From contig NZ_RCOM01000003.1 of the NCBI RefSeq assembly GCF_003667225.1, positions 1 to 64,000 on the forward strand: a stretch of DNA of 64,000 nucleotides, read 5' to 3'. The translations under genes and the position numbers were made by a program. Numbering within the stretch: the first letter of the stretch is position 1; each line of letters begins with the position of its first letter. Shown piece after piece: positions 53,385 to 64,000 of this stretch. This DNA is from Kocuria rhizophila (lineage in GTDB: Bacteria > Actinomycetota > Actinomycetes > Actinomycetales > Micrococcaceae). The notes beneath the pieces are model-generated. The model saw only the letters and a program-made list of their open reading frames with translations, ran no database searches and was not told the DNA's origin.

Positions 53385-54152
53385 TCAGATGAGGTCCCAG
53401 ACCGCGTAGGCGTTCTTGGACGAGGGCACGACCTCCCACTGCTCGGCGCGCGCGGGATCCACGCGGGCCCGGGCCCGCTCCAGGTCCTCCGCGGTCAGGT
53501 AGAACGGGCCGCCGTCCGCGAAGCGCCGGAGGTGGTCCGAGGACGGAATGACCACGCGCCGCATGTAGTCCACTCCGGCGATCCGCTTCTCCAGCGTGCA
53601 GTACGCCACCCCGGGCTGCTTCAGGTTGGCCAGGATGGCCCGAATGGCCTCCTGCAGAGGAAGCGTGGGGAGGATCTCCACGGCCCGGGCCTCCATGGCC
53701 CGCAGCACCTGCCCGGCCACCAGGAACTCGTAGTACTGCCCGGAATAACCGCTCACGTAGCGCACCTCGAGCTCCGGGTGGTTGGCGATGAAGCACGCCA
53801 GCTCCCCCATGCTGATCATCATGTCCGCGAGGCGCTCCAGGACGGCGGCCGTCCTGAGGTGGTTCTTGGCCGCGGTGCGGCCACGCATCCGGGTGGAGCG
53901 GGACACCGAGGCCCGGATCTCGATCTCGAAGGCGGAGGGGCCCATCTGCACGATGGTGAAATCGTGCTGGTAGCCCTCCAGGGCGATGGCCGATGGCTCG
54001 AACATCTGGTGGGACAGCATCTGCAGTCCCGTGAAGCTCTCCCGCATGGTGGCCTGGGGCAGCGGCAGCTGCAGTCCACCGGCGGTGCTGTAGGTGATGA
54101 GGACCGGGATCTGCGCATTGGGGGGTACTGATCCCGGAAGTGGTGGTGCCAC
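53385..54152 (-). CDS. Hypothetical protein at the edge of the polysaccharide island
   Basis: I do not recognise this 255-aa protein. It has no membrane segment or signal peptide. Notable stretches are IPVLITYSTAGGLQLPLPQA, IALEGYQHDFTIVQMGPSAF, LERLADMMISMGELACFIAN and AYCTLEKRIAGVDYMRRVVI. The middle is helical with many Arg and Glu; the end (VPSSKNAYAVWDLI) is probably ordered. The GTG at 54152 follows GAGGAGAGA, which decides the start; the longer frame upstream is poor. It is divergent from wecB and may be either the last core gene or the first gene of the island. Confidence 0.6.
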   Translation of the reverse strand: MAPPLPGSVPPNAQIPVLITYSTAGGLQLPLPQATMRESFTGLQMLSHQMFEPSAIALEGYQHDFTIVQMGPSAFEIEIRASVSRSTRMRGRTAAKNHLRTAAVLERLADMMISMGELACFIANHPELEVRYVSGYSGQYYEFLVAGQVLRAMEARAVEILPTLPLQEAIRAILANLKQPGVAYCTLEKRIAGVDYMRRVVIPSSDHLRRFADGGPFYLTAEDLERARARVDPARAEQWEVVPSSKNAYAVWDLI

Positions 54153-54498
54153 TGATTCTCTCCTCGAACTCGCCTGTTCACGTAAAGTAGGTTTTGCGCA
54201 ATCCAATTGCGCTCGTGGCATTCGGGTGAATGTGTCACGGGTGGCGTGGAGAAAAGTCGGGAATTACCACGTCGTACGAACCTGCATTCGTATGCACAAA
54301 AGTGTATTCCAGCGCGGCTTGCCCATCCCTCCTACCCGCGCGTACATCTGTACCCTCTAAGGGGGACACCTCCACCCAGATGTTGCCGGGGATGGTCGCC
54401 CTGCTCCCATAGACTGTCGGAACGTAGGGGAAGAACGGGCACCGGCGCCTCGCGGCGGGTCCCGTCTCGTCCACGGGATCCAGCAAAGGATGTATTGC
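54153..54498. other. Intergenic region upstream of wecB
   Basis: About 345 nt, visibly richer in A and T than the flanking genes. TAGACT at 54410-54415 is a possible -10 for wecB, but its best -35 (TTGCCG, 54383-54388) is 21 nt away. No gene or repeat is supported. Confidence 0.35.
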
Positions 54499-55647
54499 GT
54501 GTTCACGATCATGCCGATCTACGGCACCCGCCCGGAGGCCATCAAGATGGCGCCGATCGTCAAGGCCCTGCAGGCCAGCCCGCAGTTCGAGTGCGTGGTC
54601 ACCGTGACCGGTCAGCACCGCGAGATGCTGGACCAGGTCAACGAGATCTTCGACATCACCCCTGACCACGACCTGAACATCATCCAGCCGCGCCAAACCC
54701 TCAACGGCGTGCTGACCCGCACCGTGGAGGGCCTGGACGCGATCTTCGCGGAGAACGCCCCTGACGCCGTGGTGGTCCAGGGAGACACCACCACCTCCAC
54801 CGCGGGTGCGATCGCCGCTTTCTACCGCGGCATTCCCGTGATCCACGCCGAGGCCGGGCTGCGGTCCTTCGACCTCTTCTCCCCCTTCCCGGAGGAGGCC
54901 AACCGCAAGATGACCTCCCAGATCACCTCCCTGCACCTGGCCCCCACCAGCACTTCCAAGGAGAACCTGCTGCGGGAGGCGCTGCCTGAGGAGGACATCG
55001 TGGTCACGGGCAACACCGTCATCGACGCGCTGCTGCACACCGTGGAGCAGAAGCTTCCGTTCTCGGACCCGCAGCTCGAGGAGATTGCCTCCTCCGGCCG
55101 GCGCGTGCTGCTGGTGACCACGCACCGTCGTGAGAACCAGGGCGAGGCGATGCGCGGCGTCGGGCGCGCACTGGCCAGGATCGCGCAGGCGGAGCCGGAG
55201 CTGACCATCGTGCTGCCCGTGCACCGCAATCCCGTGGTGCGCGAGGCCGTGCTGCCCGCCATCGAGGGGCTGCCCAACGTGGTGGTCACCGAACCGCTGG
55301 CCTACGGCGAGTTCACCCGCATGCTCTCCGTGGCCCACGTGGTCCTCACGGACTCCGGCGGGGTCCAGGAGGAGGCGCCGTCCCTGGGCAAGCCCGTGCT
55401 CGTGATGCGCGAGAACACCGAGCGCCCCGAGGCCGTGACCGCCGGGACCGTCACGCTCATCGGCACGGACGAGGAGCGGATCGTCACCGAGGTGGACCGG
55501 CTGCTCAACGACGACGCCGCCTACCGCGCGATGGCCAACGCCGTGAACCCCTACGGTGACGGCAGGGCCGCCGAGCGCACCCTGGCCGCGATCGAGCAGA
55601 TGTTCGGCGTGGGGCAGCGGATCGCGGACTTCGACTCGCAGGCCTGA
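54499..55647 (+). CDS. wecB: UDP-N-acetylglucosamine 2-epimerase (non-hydrolysing)
   Basis: Converts UDP-GlcNAc to UDP-ManNAc; 382 aa. It shows MPIYGTRPEAIKMAPIVKAL, TGQHREMLDQV, VVQGDTTTSTAGAIAAFYRG, IPVIHAEAGLRSFD, TTHRRENQGEAM and the C-terminal LTDSGGVQEEAPSLGKPVLV, all standard for WecB. The GTG at 54499 lies 8 nt after AAAGGA; the ATG at 54490 overlaps that site and is less likely. It begins the + strand half of the polysaccharide island and provides an N-acetylmannosamine donor for a glycopolymer. Confidence 0.94.
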   Translation: MFTIMPIYGTRPEAIKMAPIVKALQASPQFECVVTVTGQHREMLDQVNEIFDITPDHDLNIIQPRQTLNGVLTRTVEGLDAIFAENAPDAVVVQGDTTTSTAGAIAAFYRGIPVIHAEAGLRSFDLFSPFPEEANRKMTSQITSLHLAPTSTSKENLLREALPEEDIVVTGNTVIDALLHTVEQKLPFSDPQLEEIASSGRRVLLVTTHRRENQGEAMRGVGRALARIAQAEPELTIVLPVHRNPVVREAVLPAIEGLPNVVVTEPLAYGEFTRMLSVAHVVLTDSGGVQEEAPSLGKPVLVMRENTERPEAVTAGTVTLIGTDEERIVTEVDRLLNDDAAYRAMANAVNPYGDGRAAERTLAAIEQMFGVGQRIADFDSQA

Positions 55648-55676: not shown

Positions 55677-57023
55677 ATGCGCATGACGGTGATCGGCACG
55701 GGCTACCTGGGCGCAACGCACGCGGTGGCCATGGCGGAGCTGGGCCACGAGGTGCTGGGCGTGGACGTGGACCGCGCCAAGATCGACAAGCTCGCGGCCG
55801 GTGAGGTCCCGTTCCACGAACCAGGTCTGCCAGAGCTGCTGAGGAAGCACGTGGCCACGGGCGCGGTGCGCTTCACCACCTCCTACGAGGAGGCCGGGGC
55901 GTTCGGGGACGTCCACTTCATCGGGGTGGGCACTCCGCAGAAGCGCACCGGTCACGCGGCGGACATGACCTACGTGGACGCCGCTGTGGAGCAGATCGCG
56001 CGGGCCGCGGACCACGACTGCGTGATCGCGGGCAAGTCCACCGTTCCGGTCGGATCGGCGGGGCGCCTGCAGGAGGCGGCCCGGGCGGCGTCGCGCTCCG
56101 GGGTGACGGTGGATCTCGCCTGGAACCCGGAGTTCCTGCGCGAGGGGCACGCGGTGGAGGACACTCTGCGCCCGGACCGCATGGTGCTGGGCGTGGAGCA
56201 CGATGACGCCGGCCGGCCCACCCCGGGTGCCGAACGCGCCGAGACCGCTCTGCGCGAGGCCTACGCGCAGCAGCTGGCCGCGGACACACCGTTCATCGTG
56301 ACCGACTACCAGACGGCGGAGCTCGTGAAGGTGGCGGCCAACAGCTTCCTGGCCACGAAGATCAGCTTCATCAACGCGCTGTCCGAGATCACGGAGACCG
56401 TGGGCGGGGACATCCGCACGCTGGCTGACGCCATCGGGCTGGACGACCGCATCGGACGCAAGTTCCTCAACGCCGGGGTGGGCTTCGGCGGTGGGTGCCT
56501 GCCCAAGGACATCCGCGCGCTGCGTGCCCGGGCCTCGGAGCTGGGGCTGGACCAGTCACTGCGGTTCCTGGCGGAGGTGGACGACATCAACCTGCGCCGC
56601 CGCGAGCACACCGTGCAGCTGGCCGTGCAGGAGTGCGGCGGATCGGTGCACGGCGCGCGGATCGCAGTGCTCGGAGCCGCTTTCAAACCCGAGTCCGACG
56701 ACGTCCGGGACTCCCCCGCCCTGGACATCGCCGCCCGCCTGCACTCCATGGGTGCGGACGTGCGCCTCTACGACCCCCAGGCCAACGCCAACGCCGCCCA
56801 GCGCTACCCCCGCCTGGACTACGTGGAGTCGCTGGACGCTGCCGTCACCGGTGCGCAGGTGACGCTGCTGCTCACCGAGTGGCAGGAGTTCAGGGACATG
56901 GACCCCCGCCGTGTCTCCACCCTGGCGGACTCCCCCACGATCGTCGACGGCCGGAACGTGCTGGACCCGGATGCCTGGCGGGATGCCGGGTGGCGGTATC
57001 TGGCGCTGGGCCGGCGGAACTGA
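55677..57023 (+). CDS. ugd: UDP-glucose/GDP-mannose dehydrogenase family (probable UDP-glucose 6-dehydrogenase)
   Basis: NAD-dependent dehydrogenase of 448 aa making a uronic-acid nucleotide sugar. It has an N-terminal Rossmann fold (MTVIGTGYLGATHAVAMAEL), the dehydrogenase motif GKSTVPVGSAG, WNPEFLREGHAVEDTLRPDR, the central NSFLATKISFINALSEI, and the catalytic Cys in VGFGGGCLPKDIRAL. NPEFLREG points to UDP-glucose rather than UDP-ManNAc as substrate (WecC has a different motif), though ManNAc uronate cannot be excluded next to wecB. The ATG follows CGAAAGGAC; 29 nt after wecB. A polymer with GlcA and ManNAc is inferred. Confidence 0.92.
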   Translation: MRMTVIGTGYLGATHAVAMAELGHEVLGVDVDRAKIDKLAAGEVPFHEPGLPELLRKHVATGAVRFTTSYEEAGAFGDVHFIGVGTPQKRTGHAADMTYVDAAVEQIARAADHDCVIAGKSTVPVGSAGRLQEAARAASRSGVTVDLAWNPEFLREGHAVEDTLRPDRMVLGVEHDDAGRPTPGAERAETALREAYAQQLAADTPFIVTDYQTAELVKVAANSFLATKISFINALSEITETVGGDIRTLADAIGLDDRIGRKFLNAGVGFGGGCLPKDIRALRARASELGLDQSLRFLAEVDDINLRRREHTVQLAVQECGGSVHGARIAVLGAAFKPESDDVRDSPALDIAARLHSMGADVRLYDPQANANAAQRYPRLDYVESLDAAVTGAQVTLLLTEWQEFRDMDPRRVSTLADSPTIVDGRNVLDPDAWRDAGWRYLALGRRN

Positions 57024-57051: not shown

Positions 57052-57897
57052 ATGTCTGACCTCACAACCCGACCGGTTCGCACCGTCCCCCTCGACGAAC
57101 TGCCTCTCGTGGCTCCAGAACTTCTCCTGCAGCACCAGCGGCTGAGAATTGATGTGCTCGCCAGCGAGCATGTACTGCCGTTCCTCGTCCACAGAAAGGA
57201 AGCCGCCGACGGCGTTGTCGTGTTCAGCAATGGGGCGGTCAACCATGACATTGCCCATGGCCAACCGGTGTTCCAACGATCCCGGTGGGTTGCGGGGCTG
57301 GCTCAGCACGCCATCTTTTCCTGTGATCCCGGAACGGTCGGACCGTCGAGGCTCTCATTGGCCTGGGGAAATGCGGGCCCGGATTATTGGGCTGTGTACG
57401 ACATCGGGCGGGCCGTGCGTGTTCTCAGCGCAGCATTGGGTGTCAAGGACGCGGACCGGCGCCTGTACTACGGGTCGTCAGCGGGAGGTTTTCTTTCCCT
57501 GGCACTGCTTGGAGGCGACCGCGGTGCAAGTGCCATCGTCAACAACGCCCAATTCGACTGGACCCGGTGGATGCCGGGTGACGTCAACAGACTGAGAAAG
57601 GTGCACTTCAACAATCGGCTTCCCGCACACCTCCGGCGAACAAACCCGTTGCGCACGAACGTCTTCAATCTCCTCAAAAAGCGCAGGCTGAAAGCTCGCG
57701 TCGACTACTACGTCAACCTTAATTCCAAGCACGACCGCGAGATCGACCTTCCGATGATGCAGGAGTACATCCGAGACAACCCAGCCCTCGCGTCCAACAT
57801 CCGGATCATGGAGTACTGCGACGTGCAAGCGGGCCATAGTCCGCTACCGATAGAGTTGACAACAGACATCATCAACGCGGGAACCCTTCGCCTCTGA
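57052..57897 (+). CDS. Alpha/beta hydrolase-like protein of a polysaccharide cluster
   Basis: Protein of 281 aa, probably a cytosolic serine hydrolase. The nucleophile elbow YYGSSAGGFLSLALL is near residue 143, and a late His lies in CDVQAGHSPLP, positioned as a catalytic His. Upstream segments are VVVFSNGAVNHDIAHGQPVF and HAIFSCDPGTVGPSRLSLAW. The pattern recalls hydrolases found in capsule and accessory-secretion clusters (for example Asp2-like proteins) that add or remove acyl groups from glycans; that function is inference. Base composition is less GC-rich than ugd. The ATG is 12 nt after CGAAGGGA. It converges with the next gene, 16 nt apart. Confidence 0.65.
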   Translation: MSDLTTRPVRTVPLDELPLVAPELLLQHQRLRIDVLASEHVLPFLVHRKEAADGVVVFSNGAVNHDIAHGQPVFQRSRWVAGLAQHAIFSCDPGTVGPSRLSLAWGNAGPDYWAVYDIGRAVRVLSAALGVKDADRRLYYGSSAGGFLSLALLGGDRGASAIVNNAQFDWTRWMPGDVNRLRKVHFNNRLPAHLRRTNPLRTNVFNLLKKRRLKARVDYYVNLNSKHDREIDLPMMQEYIRDNPALASNIRIMEYCDVQAGHSPLPIELTTDIINAGTLRL

Positions 57898-57913: not shown

Positions 57914-59404
57914 TCACACTGCTGGACGAGGCAACTCCACCTCATTGGACTCCTGAAGGCTGGCTGTGACCGACATGATCGAGACCCGTGCTCTCGATTG
58001 AGGTGAAGGGAGAGTTACCTTCCACTCCCCCGCGGAAGAAACCGGTGTCGATCGGATCTGGTGCCCATCGCACATGACTCGAATGTACGATCCCGGCTCG
58101 CCGACACCGGTCACTACCCAGATGCCGTCCCTGTCCTCGAAGGTCAGCAAACGGGGCGCGGGGGAAGCTCCCTGCGGAATCGGGGCAACGGCATGCGCGG
58201 TCCGCGAATCGCGTTCGCTTTTAACCGCTCGCCAGTCATTCCATGCAGCGGCGACCACTGAGTCCAGATCCCGCGCTGACAGCCACGTCTTTCCTAGCCC
58301 GACTGGTTGTTGCGGCTCCTTCTCCCGCCAGGCCCGGAGCCGATTTTCATTGGTTCCGAAGAGGAGATTCAATGGGAGGTCGGACTCGGTGAGCGTGTCC
58401 CCAGCCATTCGCATGCGCTCGAGTCGTGCCGGGTAGACGGAATCGGATTGCCGGTGGTGCACGTAAGCATAGGCACCCAGGAGGGATTCGTCCTCGACGG
58501 CGTCCATGCCTCGAGAAGTCGCCCAGTCGCGCGTCTTGTTGTGGCTCACCAGTCGCAGTTCCGAGATACGGTGTGGCCTGCCGAATATAACGTGGTTGAT
58601 GGCCAACCACGGCATGTAGGCTGGGCGGAGCAGGGCCAGTGCCGGATTATATTCGAATCCGTGACCCATGGTGATGGCACGTTCGCGCTCGTGCCCGAGT
58701 GTCAGCTGCCGCGCGACGCAGGCTGAGAGGAATCCTGCGGCCAGCGCATCGTCGTCATCCATTCTGTGGATCCCAATGATCCGGTTGCCAAACACTGCCC
58801 GGGCAAACCTGTCCACATACTCCGCATAGCTGTCGATGGATTCCACGAACAACAAGCGAATCTTCGACGCTGCGGAGGACGTGCGCACTATGCGAGAAAT
58901 CTCGTCCAGCACCCCGAGATCAACCTGGGAGTCAAGAACGAGAAGCACCAGGTGGGGGCCGTAGGTGCTACGGGCGAGGGAGGGCAGCGTGATGCTTTCG
59001 AAGAGGTCGAGTCTGAAATCCCACCAGTCAGCGTCCGTCACGCCGATTCCCATCCTGATGTGCGTGAGGATTGGAATCTCACCCGAAGGCGATTCACCCA
59101 CAGTTGCCTCGCCGGCGACGCGTTCCATCAGCTCAGCGGGCGCCAGAAACGTGGCCACGCCACTCACACCGCTCGACTCCTGCGGCAACTCGTTGTGGTA
59201 CCGGCAAGAGACCTTGCGCCTACCCTGGCTCATGTTGATACGAATCTCCCACGTGCCGTCGGCCGCAACAGTGCGCGGGGAATAGTCTCGGGCACCGACG
59301 GACACCACGATCTTCGCCCCGGGTTCACCAGTACCCCTGATGGTGTTTGCCCCAGCGATCCGCGTCGACTGGCTCGCAACATCAATGGTCAACGGATTCA
59401 CCAT
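57914..59404 (-). CDS. Rhamnosyltransferase-like protein bracketed by two Ig-like modules
   Basis: Protein of 496 aa with three parts. Residues about 21-85 are an Ig-like beta module (GTGEPGAKIVVSVG, AADGTWEI, QES). Residues about 110-395 resemble the putative rhamnosyl transferase family (PF11316): ILTHIRMGIG, WWDFRLDLFESITLPSL and IIGIHRMDDDDALAAGF, where the Asp cluster would bind the metal-nucleotide. Residues about 430-496 repeat the first module: VTGVGEPGSYIRV, AGEWKVTL, QES. No signal peptide is visible, so it probably works inside the cell. It is the last gene of the minus-strand operon and starts 2 nt after the stop of the heparinase-like gene at 59407. Confidence 0.68.
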   Translation of the reverse strand: MVNPLTIDVASQSTRIAGANTIRGTGEPGAKIVVSVGARDYSPRTVAADGTWEIRINMSQGRRKVSCRYHNELPQESSGVSGVATFLAPAELMERVAGEATVGESPSGEIPILTHIRMGIGVTDADWWDFRLDLFESITLPSLARSTYGPHLVLLVLDSQVDLGVLDEISRIVRTSSAASKIRLLFVESIDSYAEYVDRFARAVFGNRIIGIHRMDDDDALAAGFLSACVARQLTLGHERERAITMGHGFEYNPALALLRPAYMPWLAINHVIFGRPHRISELRLVSHNKTRDWATSRGMDAVEDESLLGAYAYVHHRQSDSVYPARLERMRMAGDTLTESDLPLNLLFGTNENRLRAWREKEPQQPVGLGKTWLSARDLDSVVAAAWNDWRAVKSERDSRTAHAVAPIPQGASPAPRLLTFEDRDGIWVVTGVGEPGSYIRVMCDGHQIRSTPVSSAGEWKVTLPSPQSRARVSIMSVTASLQESNEVELPRPAV

Positions 59405-59406
59405 GG

Positions 59407-61362
59407 TTAGTTCTCCCCACTTGATTCATTCGGTATGAGCGACACAGTGAAGGATCGGATGACGCCAGCCGGTCCCTTGAGGTAAACCCTCACCCGCGTT
59501 CGCCCAGGGTTTTGCACCGAGAAATAGGCAGACGTCCGTCGCTGGTACGGCTGCCTGGCGATGATTTTTGCGTCTTCGATCACGTAGAACGCGCAGTGAC
59601 CGTTGATGTCCGTCAGGGAGACCTTGAAGAGTCCTCGGCCGTCGTGGTGGACCGTACAACGAGTTTCTGTCTCCGCGTCCAAGTGCTCGTTGGACAGGTT
59701 GACGACTGAGGATCCGACACCAATTCCGTCCAGTGCAGAAATATAGTCGTCAGGGTCACACCCACGATGTGCCAGTTGTCGCGCGATGTCGTAGAACACC
59801 TCGTTGTCAGGACCGATCAGGGTGGCATAGGCGCCCAGACCTGACGCGCTAAATTCGAGCTGCGTGGTGGGAGAGCATCGTCGCCACCCCGTGGAATGCC
59901 ACCCTCTCAGCGGGTTCTTCTCGCCCCGGTGTGTCGACCGCGCCTCGACCGGAAGAAGGTTTCGGACCATGCAGACCTGGTCCCCGGCGGAGAGTCGAAA
60001 TCCTTCTCTCGTGCCAGAGGCTTGGACAGCAGGATTCAGGTTCCAGACCTGACCGTGTTCCACTCCGGTTCCCGACTCGATCCTGTCCAGGACGAGGAGC
60101 TGGTCAGCGGCACCGAAGTACAGAACCGTGCGGGAAACCTGCGTGTTCTCGTACGACGGATCGTCCAGCTCGACAACTTGGACTCCGCCTGCGACCTCAG
60201 CGCGGCGGCAGGTTACGGACGCGTGACTCGGGTCAACCTTGAGCGCGTTCACCCGCACAACACTGTTCGCCTCCCTGCTGACCACGTATCTGCGAACCGG
60301 GTCGTTGCCGTAGTAGTACCTCCCCGGCCCGTCGATCCATTGCACACCGAGCGCACAGTAGGTCACCGATCCCCCATCGGCATGACCGTGGATCTTCTTT
60401 TGGCTGCCCCAGGTCACCGAGACGAAGGACTCCCGCGCGAAGTCCCGTTCCTCTCCCCACCCGCTGCGCATGAACCCAAATCCTTGTGCGGAAAAAACGT
60501 GCAGGTCCCCTGGATGGCTCCCTGAACGGCCACCTGTCGTCACGTAGTCCGTGTGCTCGTGGCCGAGCGACCTAGCATTTCCGCCATCCGTGTCTCCGAT
60601 CCGCGCAAACTTGCCCAAGGGCGTCGTGGCGTGAGCCAAGAACGCCGGCGCCTGGTCGAGTCTGTCCGTGATGTCCTTCGTGTCGATGCCCTCTCGTTGC
60701 AGACGCACCACCACTTCCTGCCACCAGCGGTAGTTCATCAGCTGATAAGAAATGGCACCCTCCTCGTTGACCCCGCGATCGTCGTAGGAGGCAAAGAGGT
60801 GGGACCGCAGACGGCTCACCGCGAGGTCCACGAGTTCGGTATCGTCGAGTACGCAACCGAGCACGAAGAGGCCGATGTGCTGGTGCAGCGCGTGGTTACC
60901 GTGAGCCAGGTGAGCAGGATCCTTCAGCCAGCCGGCGTGGTCCTGGAGGGAGTCCAGCAACCACTGTTCCTCACCGCATATGGCAACTCCGTGGCAGAGC
61001 TCCATGGCCCTGATTCCGTCACTCATGTCGATCCACGACCAGCGAGAGGCCCCATTGCCCACTGGATTCGCTAAGACCCACGATGAAGCATATTTTTTCC
61101 AGAGCTGAGCGGCTTCCACATTGCCGTGCAGAGATGCCCTGCGAAGGGGATCAAGCCAGCGGAGCATGTGGTACTGGAACTGCCAGTTGTTGTCGGAGAA
61201 GGGATTTTCTGACCATGAGGGGTTCTCCGGGAGAACCCAGCCTTTGTGTGGCGCAAGGACGAGGTAACGTGAAGTCAGTTCCTTTGTCTTTACGTCGTCG
61301 CCGGGGGTTTCTGTGAAACCGCTGCCGAGCGCCTGCCTGACGGCCGCTGCTACGTTGACCAC
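59407..61362 (-). CDS. Heparinase II/III-fold protein, copy 1
   Basis: Protein of 651 aa similar to heparinase II/III and alginate lyases, which cut uronic-acid polysaccharides by beta-elimination. It has an N-terminal helical toroid (DNNWQFQYHMLRWLDPLRRA, AHGNHALHQHIGLFVLG, RGVNEEGAISYQLMNYRWWQ) and a C-terminal beta-sandwich with KKIHGHADGGSVTYCALGVQ near residue 325, WIDGPGRYYYGNDPVRRYVV and REANSVVRVN. A terminal module at about 575-650 (CAFYVIEDAKIIARQPYQRR) is also found in copy 2. There is no signal peptide, unlike most secreted lyases. It lies 33 nt after copy 2. It may trim or edit the polymer during synthesis; this is inference. Confidence 0.78.
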   Translation of the reverse strand: MVNVAAAVRQALGSGFTETPGDDVKTKELTSRYLVLAPHKGWVLPENPSWSENPFSDNNWQFQYHMLRWLDPLRRASLHGNVEAAQLWKKYASSWVLANPVGNGASRWSWIDMSDGIRAMELCHGVAICGEEQWLLDSLQDHAGWLKDPAHLAHGNHALHQHIGLFVLGCVLDDTELVDLAVSRLRSHLFASYDDRGVNEEGAISYQLMNYRWWQEVVVRLQREGIDTKDITDRLDQAPAFLAHATTPLGKFARIGDTDGGNARSLGHEHTDYVTTGGRSGSHPGDLHVFSAQGFGFMRSGWGEERDFARESFVSVTWGSQKKIHGHADGGSVTYCALGVQWIDGPGRYYYGNDPVRRYVVSREANSVVRVNALKVDPSHASVTCRRAEVAGGVQVVELDDPSYENTQVSRTVLYFGAADQLLVLDRIESGTGVEHGQVWNLNPAVQASGTREGFRLSAGDQVCMVRNLLPVEARSTHRGEKNPLRGWHSTGWRRCSPTTQLEFSASGLGAYATLIGPDNEVFYDIARQLAHRGCDPDDYISALDGIGVGSSVVNLSNEHLDAETETRCTVHHDGRGLFKVSLTDINGHCAFYVIEDAKIIARQPYQRRTSAYFSVQNPGRTRVRVYLKGPAGVIRSFTVSLIPNESSGEN

Positions 61363-61395
61363 GGTATTCTCCTGTTCGCGAACTGTTTGGGCTAA

Positions 61396-63513
61396 CTAGC
61401 GCTGCTGATTCTCGCCCGAGACGTGGATGCTTTTGCTGGAGACCGTGTCGGAAGGTTCGTCCTGATCCCTCCTGAGGAACCCACGCACGCGATATGACCC
61501 GTCTGGAAGGTCGACAAATGATGCAGAGAAGACATTCTTGCGATAAGGAATCTTCCGGACGGCAACCCGCCCTTCGTACAGATAGAAAGCCGCACTCAGC
61601 GCCTCGCCAGTGTCCTGCAGCTCGGCGTGGATGCTTCGCCCCGAGCGCGTGATCACGAGGGAAGCACCCTGCGTAGACCGTTGGGTGGTTCCGGCGGCGG
61701 TCGAGGTGTCGCGAGAGGTGGCGTCTGCCGCGTGACTTTGCTTGCTGGAGGTGAGAAGGTTCCCAGAGCCGTGCTGAAAATTGTTTGTTCTGATGCTGGT
61801 CTCGAGCAGCAGGTCGTGACCCTCAGACATAATCTCGAGGACCGTACCGGGTTTCACCACACCAAATCGGGGAAAACGTTGCGCAAACGGTGTGCTTCCG
61901 TGTGACGGGCGCCTGATACGAGAGCTGGTCCTTGCCGAAGAACTCCAGTCGATCTCCATGACCTTTTGCGATCCGAGGTACAGGTCTGTTCCGTGGTCAC
62001 GAGGCTGCGCCGATACTCCTTCTCCGAGGTGCCACAGAACGGAAAACTTGTGGAGTTTTTCGTCCGTCGTCACTACCTTGTCCTTAACGTGTACCGAGAT
62101 CCCCTGCGCCCGAGAATCTGTGCACGGTACGGCGCGAACTCTTCGCAAATGCTCCCACTCGTCAGAACGACTGTTGATCCCTTCGACGTCGAAGCCATCC
62201 ACGCCACCGTGACTGCGGTCCGTGAACGCAACGTTGCCAGGTATCTTGTCCACTCGGGGCTGGCTGGTTCCATCGACGAGGACGACGTTGTGGGCTTTCT
62301 GTGAAAAAGCGTACTTGGTCAGGGCATCCTTGTAGTCGTATCCGTAGGGGCCTGCCTCGGCGAGCACGAGGCGTCCGTGGGCGTAAAACAAGAGGGAAAG
62401 ATCGTCGCAGTGGTGGTGGTAGTTGGATCTGTACCCCGCTTTGAAAAGCACCCACTCGGCGTTCTCGTCCCACGACGACCGGGCGATTGCATAGCCTGCG
62501 TCGGGAAACACTGCGCGTGTGGATCCGGGCGGTCGTCCCTCCCGCCCGCGGGATATGGACCACATGTACTCGGGCGTGCGAAACGTCGTGCGGTGAGAGG
62601 TGCTGTAGACCGCTTCGTGCTTGGAGTCGCCGAGTGGAGGCACACATCCGTCGGGGGTCACAATATGGGTGGCGAAGTGCTCGGCTCGTTCTTGAAGGGC
62701 GACGAGATGCTTCGTGTCCGGGTATTCCAATGCTTGGAACACGGGCAGCAGGTCCTTCACGTATCTGCTGACCATAAAGTGGTAGCTGGGACTGTTCTCG
62801 ACATGCACGCCGTCCGGGGTGAAGCAATGCGACAGGTAGGTGTCGAGTCGGGTGCTTGCGAGGTCGTAGAAATCGTTAATGTCGTTGTCTGTCCACATGT
62901 CCCTAGCGGCGTGAGTGCTCGCCAGGCGCAGCAAGGCGATGTTCTGAAACATGCCGTGATTGTTTTCGCCGGCGTAGAAAGCAGGATCTGACAAAAGCTC
63001 GACATGGAGCTGGAGGACGTCTTGGAGCGGGGACAAGTCTCGATCGGCATCGCTCTGGTGCTGCGAATCCATGAAGGAACCCAGCTGGAGCGCCCTTTGC
63101 GCGGTGGTCTCGTCGTGGAAAGCCATCGAACTGGAACCAGGGGGGTACGCGTTCACCTTGGACCAGGAACGGAAGAGTCGCAGGATTTCGTCGGCCGCGG
63201 CTTCGCGAGAGTAGGACAGGTCGGCGCCCTGGTCTGGCAGGTCTGCCAGAAAGAGAAAGCCGTGCAGATACCGCCCATGTGTGCGCTGGAACTCTGTGGT
63301 CCACATGATGTCCGTGCTGGCATCCACATCTGGAAAGACCGGGTGTTGAATGCAACTTTGTCCTATGAGGGCTTGAGCTCGTCGTGCCGCCTGCTCTCCC
63401 CCGATGCGTGGCACGAGAGCTTCGGTGGCATGCCGTACACGGGCGTGCTGAAGTACGCACCGCCGAGTGTGTCCTCGGAACGAGCAGTCGTTACGAGAGC
63501 TGCCCGGCGTCAT
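61396..63513 (-). CDS. Heparinase II/III-fold protein, copy 2
   Basis: Protein of 705 aa. Helical part: YLHGFLFLADLP, NAYPPGSSSMAFHDETTAQR, GENNHGMFQNIALLRLAST and DGVHVENSPSYHFMVSRYVK. Catalytic-type motif near residue 362: GYRSNYHHHCDDLSLLFYAH, then RLVLAEAGPYGYDYKDAL and QKAHNVVLVDG. A Ser/Thr-rich linker at about 575-610 leads to a C-terminal beta module (AAFYLYEGRVAVRKIPYRKN) that is like the one in copy 1. No signal peptide is visible. It overlaps the upstream glycosyltransferase gene by 4 nt, so it is translated with it. Sequence is distant from copy 1, so they are not a recent duplication. Confidence 0.78.
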   Translation of the reverse strand: MTPGSSRNDCSFRGHTRRCVLQHARVRHATEALVPRIGGEQAARRAQALIGQSCIQHPVFPDVDASTDIMWTTEFQRTHGRYLHGFLFLADLPDQGADLSYSREAAADEILRLFRSWSKVNAYPPGSSSMAFHDETTAQRALQLGSFMDSQHQSDADRDLSPLQDVLQLHVELLSDPAFYAGENNHGMFQNIALLRLASTHAARDMWTDNDINDFYDLASTRLDTYLSHCFTPDGVHVENSPSYHFMVSRYVKDLLPVFQALEYPDTKHLVALQERAEHFATHIVTPDGCVPPLGDSKHEAVYSTSHRTTFRTPEYMWSISRGREGRPPGSTRAVFPDAGYAIARSSWDENAEWVLFKAGYRSNYHHHCDDLSLLFYAHGRLVLAEAGPYGYDYKDALTKYAFSQKAHNVVLVDGTSQPRVDKIPGNVAFTDRSHGGVDGFDVEGINSRSDEWEHLRRVRAVPCTDSRAQGISVHVKDKVVTTDEKLHKFSVLWHLGEGVSAQPRDHGTDLYLGSQKVMEIDWSSSARTSSRIRRPSHGSTPFAQRFPRFGVVKPGTVLEIMSEGHDLLLETSIRTNNFQHGSGNLLTSSKQSHAADATSRDTSTAAGTTQRSTQGASLVITRSGRSIHAELQDTGEALSAAFYLYEGRVAVRKIPYRKNVFSASFVDLPDGSYRVRGFLRRDQDEPSDTVSSKSIHVSGENQQR

Positions 63514-64000
63514 GACGCATCCTTCGTCGTAACCGTGACAGGGGCAGGCTCCAGGCAGTCCCCTGGCAGATCCAGCTCCCTGATCTGCCTCGGCACGATT
63601 GTCACATCTGACAGGGGATCTGCGGGATCAAGGGGCTGGAGATCTGCGTCGTAGAGAGCACAGATGGCCTCCAGAACCGGTCTGCAGTCGGGACGCACCT
63701 CAGGGGCGACAAAGCTGTTGTATTTTTTGACCAACCAACCGTTCAGGAAAGCGTCTGCTCTCAAATGGCAGTAGTCCTCATACATCGAGTGCTGCCTGAG
63801 CCAGGCTGCCCGGTACTCCTCTAGAGGCAGGTACTTACGGTAAAAGCCGGGTCCCACGGTATTGATCATGGAGCGGGAAACCGCACCGTAATAGATGTGG
63901 ATGGGCAGGTTCACCTTGGCAATTCGGTGCGCCCCGTGGAGCATCTGCTGGAAGGCGAACGAGTCTTGTCCGAGTGCGCCCACAGGCTGGTGCATGCCGA
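63510..64000 (-). CDS. Glycosyltransferase family 2, C-terminal part (cut by window end)
   Basis: The last 163 codons of a larger gene that starts beyond the window. The sequence GALGQDSFAFQQMLHGAHRI, IHIYYGAVSRSMINTVG, FYRKYLPLEEYRAAWLR and ADAFLNGWLVKKYN matches the C-terminal half of GT2 enzymes that build bacterial capsules. The GxDSFAF region corresponds to the conserved acidic residue used as base. First visible gene of the operon with the two heparinase-fold proteins and the Ig-flanked transferase. Confidence 0.72.
   Translation of the reverse strand, partial: GMHQPVGALGQDSFAFQQMLHGAHRIAKVNLPIHIYYGAVSRSMINTVGPGFYRKYLPLEEYRAAWLRQHSMYEDYCHLRADAFLNGWLVKKYNSFVAPEVRPDCRPVLEAICALYDADLQPLDPADPLSDVTIVPRQIRELDLPGDCLEPAPVTVTTKDAS

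Follow-up and report, generated by a model that had tools for sequence, protein, structure and literature searches.

Why should a gene cluster that apparently builds a cell-wall polymer carry two proteins of a fold whose solved lyases, in the papers drawn on here, are degraders of uronic acid polymers? The question is raised by the last few kilobases of a 64,000-nucleotide stretch of Kocuria rhizophila (contig NZ_RCOM01000003.1, positions 1 to 64,000; hereafter the window), where two genes, here called HepA and HepB, lie between a family 2 glycosyltransferase (GT2) gene and a rhamnosyltransferase-like gene. An initial annotation, made from the letters alone, had read them as lyase-fold proteins lacking export signals and placed them inside a polysaccharide synthesis operon, an arrangement borne out here by coordinates and Pfam matches. 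The fold itself is known; what is unusual is to meet a variant of it among polymer-building enzymes. The leading model, to which we give a probability of roughly 40%, is a cytoplasmic lyase by which nascent chains containing N-acetylmannosaminuronic acid (ManNAcA) would be both trimmed and capped. Statements on the enzymology of polysaccharide lyase (PL) families 12, 33 and 35 and of the human epimerase DS-epi1 draw throughout on passages of three sources (PMC12088678, PMC8006597, PMC11848413).

Both proteins were assigned to the fold by profile and by structure. Hepar_II_III_C (PF07940) matched HepA with 35.5 bits and HepB with 59.1 bits (cut-off 24), Hepar_II_III_N (PF16889) matched them with 22.8 and 25.8 bits (cut-off 22), and these two proteins alone account for the PF07940 matches in the 2.70 Mb assembly. 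Neither is filed as heparinase III itself because the NCBIfam HepC equivalog models gave 24.5 and 28.8 bits against a cut-off of 700. Structure prediction, which the initial annotation had recommended, gave AlphaFold 2 models with mean per-residue confidence scores (pLDDTs) of 91.9 for HepA and 83.3 for HepB, and the best match in the PDB was heparinase III for both (4MMI; HepA, Z 32.3, root-mean-square deviation 5.5, 521 residues aligned; HepB, Z 35.7, deviation 5.1, 527 residues aligned). Through these matches each predicted model is assigned the (alpha/alpha) toroid and antiparallel beta-sheet of the PL12 fold, and on these models HepA and HepB are heparinase III-like (PL12-like) lyase-fold proteins. 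DS-epi1 (6HZN) scored Z 23.0 against HepA and 20.7 against HepB, which is below heparinase III and on a par with the PL33 lyases (23-24 for HepA, about 21 for HepB); the identity of the nearest structure, as modeled, favours a lyase without deciding the chemistry. A recent duplication of the pair was ruled out, as HepA and HepB fall into separate groups of 32 rows (support 95) and 9 rows (support 100), respectively, in a quick, midpoint-rooted tree of 71 Hep domains with SH-like approximate likelihood ratio (SH-aLRT) support only.

The His/Asp-containing motif noticed at the outset is present in both proteins, as HGHAD in HepA and HHHCD in HepB. An Asn/Tyr/His triad is common to PL12, PL33 and PL35 lyases, and Asn240, Tyr294 and His424 of PL12 align with N156, Y206 and H325 of HepA and with N185, Y244 and H366 of HepB (PL12 positions being chain numbers plus 24, with the Asn placed by family alignment alone). 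A further Tyr stands 26 residues past the catalytic His in each protein (HepA Y351, HepB Y392) and would correspond to the Tyr of BtPL33, whose His and Tyr occupy positions 444 and 470. The metal ligands of the PL35 enzyme GAGase II are H403, D405, D421 and H457, a pattern that HepB appears to reproduce by spacing (His at +2, Asp at +4, an acid at +20 and a later His), making His368, Asp370, Glu386 and His408 its candidate ligands; the acid at +20, Glu386, is Asp in 17 of 21 rows. HepA has G345 where 35 of 37 rows have Asp and N366 where 36 of 37 have His. These positions seem to match Asp421 and His457 of GAGase II, where exchange of either residue for alanine caused complete or substantial loss of activity, and Asp344, which adjoins position 345, might compensate for the lost ligand. 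With two metal-ligand positions changed in HepA of this genome, HepA and HepB are possibly not equivalent enzymes; in other Kocuria, for example K. carniphila (L073), HepA retains these metal-site residues. HepA also carries Gln207, a residue found in 7 of 37 rows, where His is found in 29.

Location was judged by plain hydropathy; out of a common set of 69 Hep proteins, the 13 that score 1.81-2.89 and resemble exported or membrane-anchored proteins served as positive controls (several starts among the 69 are those of the longest open reading frame and are possibly wrong). Within the first 60 residues, the best 15-residue values were 0.89 for HepA and 0.63 for HepB, and no membrane stretch reaching 1.6 over 19 residues was found in either. 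HepB begins at the earliest start in its frame, an ATG that overlaps the stop codon of GT2, and the HepA start aligns with those of four orthologues from the same genus. On the tree, the exported label (13 rows) changes 6 times against a shuffled mean of 12.2, with 0 of 500 shuffles as low, and no exported-looking member occurs in the HepA or the HepB group. On hydropathy, start checks and tree, a secreted enzyme with a missed signal was rejected for this pair. Two genomes of the genus each encode one long protein (1868 aa in one, 1811 aa in the other) in which a family 4 glycosyltransferase (GT4) domain is enclosed by two Hep domains and which contains no membrane stretch. Given these fusions and the lack of a signal, the cytoplasm is the likely site of action of HepA and HepB; the export signal that would have spoken against the initial annotation was not found at the checked N-termini, and its intracellular assignment holds as probable. 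Other relatives have Hep fused to an alpha/beta-hydrolase-like domain (Hydrolase_4, Peptidase_S9, Asp2 and XcbB/CpsF matches, all below cut-off), and the separate hydrolase-like gene beside ugd in the window is 29% alike to this domain in one such fusion (L089).

If the pair acts in the cytoplasm, which polymer would it meet there? A cluster with wecB and ugd making a polymer of N-acetylmannosamine (ManNAc) and glucuronic acid (GlcA) had been proposed. Both genes are present, on the strand opposite to the Hep genes, and the reading as a uronic acid glycopolymer cluster stands, with ManNAcA taking the place of GlcA: WecC lies just beyond the window, and across 49 named homologous loci WecC was found in 27, WecB in 15 and UDP-glucose dehydrogenase (UGD) in none (at least 45%, at least 250 aa), which led us to drop a GlcA polymer as the substrate. 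Thirteen of these loci are shorter than 20 kb; among the 36 of at least 20 kb, WecC was found in 25. WecB (TIGR00236, 474.5 bits; cut-off 210.15) and WecC both score above their equivalog cut-offs, and the cell is therefore able to make UDP-ManNAcA. The polymer of this cluster should contain ManNAcA, and the cluster is probably one for ManNAcA wall-polymer synthesis.

The association extends through the family, where a sample of 149 genomes held 29 with PF07940 and 80 with WecC, both above cut-off. WecC was present in 27 of the 29 Hep genomes and in 53 of the 120 others (Fisher 5.9e-7), and the two genes lay within 15 kb of each other in 20 Hep genomes and within 31 kb in 23. Related clusters making no uronic acid had been named as grounds for abandoning the proposal; instead, a ManNAcA dehydrogenase gene above cut-off accompanies the fold in all Hep genomes of the family except G054 and G112, the latter having a WecC match that is broken into two overlapping pieces. 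Within the genus, WecC is present in all 12 Hep genomes and in 7 of 15 Hep-less ones (Fisher 0.0029). As the genomes are related, these Fisher tests overstate independence. Hep-fold genes were also seen near WecB/WecC in Halomonas, Luteimonas and Psychrobacter (L109, L115, L117).

The cluster continues to the right past the window edge, on a contig of 79,513 bases. Read from right to left on the minus strand, it consists of two GT4-type genes, an ABC-2 permease, a TagH-like ATPase, a CgeB-like/GT2 protein and WecC, followed by GT4 and CgeB/GT4 genes, GT2, HepB, HepA and the rhamnosyltransferase-like gene. The ATP-binding cassette (ABC) pair is matched above cut-off by ABC_tran, with 74.2 bits, and by ABC2_membrane, with 39.8, and suggests export of the finished chain; its substrate is assigned provisionally because the best NCBIfam matches of the ATPase, models for teichoic-acid export, score below cut-off.

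Neighbourhood analysis, another check proposed at the outset, was carried out in family, genus and order and places Hep in a variable, tailoring-like middle of the cluster. Seven Kocuria genomes have WecC without Hep, and six were compared (G153 was left out). Four of them (G158, G103, G156 and G083) keep the left flank of GT4c, GT4b, TagG, TagH, CgeB-GT2 and WecC, the last 93-96% identical, as well as the right flank, where identities are 88-93% for UGD and 91-97% for WecB, around a different middle devoid of Hep, and in G166 and G167 WecC directly adjoins UGD and WecB. The middle of G083 holds three proteins with pyruvyltransferase domains; for several further genes of the middle, Pfam gave no match. 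With its flanks kept and its middle varying, the slot looks like polymer tailoring, and the Hep genes probably belong to the part of the cluster that makes each species' polymer different. The Hep genes and two neighbours have a low G+C content, namely 0.603 for HepA, 0.593 for HepB, 0.610 for the rhamnosyltransferase-like gene and 0.596 for the hydrolase-like gene; values are higher for WecB (0.687), UGD (0.711) and the contig (0.689), but TagG and GT2 are at 0.644. A requirement of the neighbouring GT2 for Hep was ruled out, as G158 lacks Hep yet encodes a GT2 homologue (67%).

HepA and HepB had also been thought to share a C-terminal beta module, and the recommended alignment agrees: over about 70 residues their ends scored 53 in local alignment against a shuffled mean of 24.3, a score reached by 1 of 2000 shuffles. 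The models predict beta strands following a loose linker. A hidden Markov model (HMM) of the module found 21 copies in 706 proteins, the pool being the loci fetched for Hep; 17 copies are in Hep proteins, two in Asp2-like hydrolase proteins and two in proteins of unknown type, and the module occurs twice in two longer Hep proteins, of 1046 aa and 1088 aa, with no Pfam match in the stretch between. None of the 124 predicted proteins of Hep-less loci contained it at E < 0.01, and no Pfam model matches either window copy. Identity with the Big_6 domains of the rhamnosyltransferase-like neighbour found no support (hhalign probability 2%). The module probably serves both proteins for docking or for binding glycan.

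Drawing on the observed fold (by model), residues, lack of a signal, gene context, family linkage to WecC and slot, we infer a cytoplasmic site, a substrate, a chemistry with its metal ligands, a capping step and roles for HepA and the module. The glycosyltransferases of the cluster would build the ManNAcA chain on the cytoplasmic face, prior to ABC export. HepB would abstract the C5 proton of 4-linked ManNAcA with the help of Asn185, His186, Tyr244, His366 and Tyr392 and a metal on His368, Asp370, Glu386 and His408, and would then beta-eliminate the sugar on O4. Micrococcus luteus belongs to the same family as Kocuria. Beta-elimination chemistry would be possible because the teichuronic acid of M. 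luteus contains 4-linked ManNAcA, as described in passages of PMC3005890. If the cut chain is linked to a carrier, the carrier would keep the reducing-end part and the growing non-reducing end would become an unsaturated uronate; lacking a 4-OH, this end could not be extended, and one cut would therefore both trim and cap. HepA, a paralogue from a separate clade, would probably be impaired or act as a binding partner.

Several observations weigh against this trim-and-cap model. The catalytic residues are common to the C5-epimerase DS-epi1, and an epimerase would be at least as much at home in a variable, tailoring-type slot. In the family, 53 of 80 genomes with WecC have no such fold above cut-off, and the fold is therefore not needed for making such a polymer. 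That the fold accompanies WecC everywhere is not upheld in the wider order, where, in a sample of 198 genomes, WecC was found in 16 of 52 Hep genomes and in 23 of 146 others (Fisher 0.019); 11 of the 16 genomes with both have them within 20 kb. Pfam recognised no sugar-binding domain able to read a cap in the TagH-like ATPase (318 aa), and two glycosyltransferase genes upstream appear frame-shifted in this assembly. The Halomonas relative beside WecB and WecC (L109) looks exported, and membrane stretches lie close to the N-terminus of a third GT4-Hep fusion, that of Serinicoccus (L086).

The strongest rival is a C5-epimerase acting at the level of the polymer, in which the same residues would remove and return the C5 proton, converting some of the D-ManNAcA in the chain to N-acetyl-L-gulosaminuronic acid (L-GulNAcA) before export. 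We regard it as unlikely, though well short of negligible, because DS-epi1 shares the residues and scores level with the PL33 lyases and because an epimerase fits the slot well. DS-epi1 has the same fold, and heparinase II conserves both its catalytic and its metal site; the slot that holds Hep here holds other tailoring enzymes in G083, and fusion to a glycosyltransferase would be more in keeping with modification than with degradation. Set against this, heparinase III scores clearly higher (Z 32-36), and we know of no bacterial epimerase of the heparinase fold.

A good deal less probable is that the pair are non-catalytic or weakly catalytic chain-binding scaffolds which organise the glycosyltransferases, the metal-site changes of HepA marking drift. 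G345 and N366 would then recall the inactivating alanine exchanges at the GAGase II ligands to which they seem to correspond, and the fusions to glycosyltransferase and hydrolase-like domains and the shared beta module would be explained, but the catalytic and metal residues are retained in HepB and in almost every relative, and Asp344 might stand in for position 345 in HepA. Quality control, in which a cytoplasmic lyase would destroy stalled or mis-assembled chains and return their sugars, is the least probable reading. It suits the fold, whose members act on uronic acid polymers, and the cytoplasmic location, but no uptake or catabolic gene was recognised by Pfam among 16 locus proteins, and the Hep genes have chain-building genes as neighbours, with which they co-vary.

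Table 1. Positions of the Hep genes, their motifs and modules, and surrounding or related genes; coordinates refer to the window unless otherwise stated.
Feature	Coordinates	Strand	Remarks
HepB	61396-63513	minus	705 aa, ATG; heparinase II/III-fold; catalytic and putative metal residues present
HepA	59407-61362	minus	651 aa, GTG; heparinase II/III-fold; catalytic residues kept, two putative metal-ligand positions changed
HepB HHHCD motif, H366-H-H368-C-D370	62404-62418	minus	H366 putatively catalytic, H368 and D370 putatively metal-binding, by alignment/spacing to PL12/PL35
HepA HGHAD motif, H325-G-H327-A-D329	60376-60390	minus	H325 putatively catalytic, H327 and D329 putatively metal-binding, by alignment/spacing
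HepA residues 345-366, with G345 and N366	60265-60330	minus	Family alignment
HepB C-terminal beta module, residues 622-695	61429-61650	minus	Alignment, HMM, model
HepA C-terminal beta module, residues 572-643	59434-59649	minus	Alignment, HMM, model
GT2 gene, 3' part in window	63510-64000	minus	Whole gene 63510-65057 of contig; stop overlaps HepB start
Rhamnosyltransferase-like gene	57914-59404	minus	With Big_6 Ig-like domains (Pfam)
Alpha/beta-hydrolase-like gene	57052-57897	plus	Frame opens at 56911, start ~57052 by inspection; Pfam score below cut-off
UGD, TuaD-like	55677-57023	plus	Conserved right flank
WecB, UDP-GlcNAc 2-epimerase	54490-55647	plus	Conserved right flank
WecC	71082-72329 of contig, just beyond window	minus	NF008286, 559.7 bits; equivalog cut-off 459
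Hep-GT4-Hep fusions	L050:10634-16240 and L051:7857-13292		Two genomes of the genus, one K. soli (again as L087)
654-668 aa protein family	L120:3538-5544, L121:8026-9990, L123:7430-9415		Hep-less Kocuria loci

Further features of the locus and its relatives were recorded in passing. The rhamnosyltransferase-like protein has Big_6 at both ends and no membrane stretch. A 278-aa protein with no Pfam match (53385-54221) recurs as a homologue at the right border of five of the six Hep-less loci compared; for G083, the remaining one, the stretch available ends inside WecB. At ~65.0 kb of the contig (G000:C129; L003 ~8.0 kb), the CgeB-like/GT2 protein is split over two frames (411 + 500 aligned residues), its counterpart in G061 being a single protein of 929 aa, and the split is either an assembly error or a real inactivation. 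At ~69.3 kb (L003 ~12.3 kb), a GT4/CgeB-type protein that is a single 1483-aa protein in G061 lies in two frames whose overlap holds a run of eight G, where sequencing error and phase variation are both possible. Proteins of 654-668 aa, 41-44% identical and lacking a Pfam match, occur near UGD in three Hep-less Kocuria loci.

Two groups of Hep proteins without signals thus sit among, and are sometimes fused to, enzymes that apparently make a wall polymer of ManNAcA. Action of the Hep proteins on the growing chain would explain the length of such a polymer or its final uronic acid. A glycan exported by an ABC system would be shaped in a new manner both by a bacterial counterpart of DS-epi1 that converts wall-glycan ManNAcA to L-GulNAcA at polymer level and by a lyase whose cut itself terminates the chain; that one of the two holds is possible, at somewhat less than even odds, which lie below the sum of the epimerase and lyase readings because the lyase counts only if its cut sets chain length.

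Among known systems, heparinase III of PL12 (4MMH/4MMI, 5JMD/5JMF, 4FNV) is the best fold match for both proteins, with catalytic Asn, Tyr and His aligned; in contrast to it, the Hep pair, at 14-17% identity, has no export signal, bears an additional C-terminal module and is encoded in a biosynthetic cluster. The GAGases of PL35 (8KHV, 8KHW) and PL33 lyases (8R70 series) have the same triad, and the metal-ligand pattern of GAGase II appears to match HepB by spacing; unlike the proposed enzyme, these lyases act on glycosaminoglycans or related polymers, and GAGase II has a signal peptide, which was removed for cloning. Teichuronic acid synthesis in M. luteus likewise yields a ManNAcA polymer (ManNAcA-Glc) assembled at the cytoplasmic membrane, but the passages of PMC3005890 drawn on here describe two transferase activities and no lyase-fold protein. 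Such proteins were not described in the open-access literature among the matches listed (subscription papers lay outside the search). Human DS-epi1 differs in its substrate, GlcA, in its location in the Golgi and in a structural score lower than that of heparinase III. It has the same fold and an active site of the His205/Tyr261/Tyr473 type whose residues the lyases share, and it too is a biosynthetic enzyme working at the level of the polymer; Hep proteins acting on a nascent chain would be its bacterial parallel.

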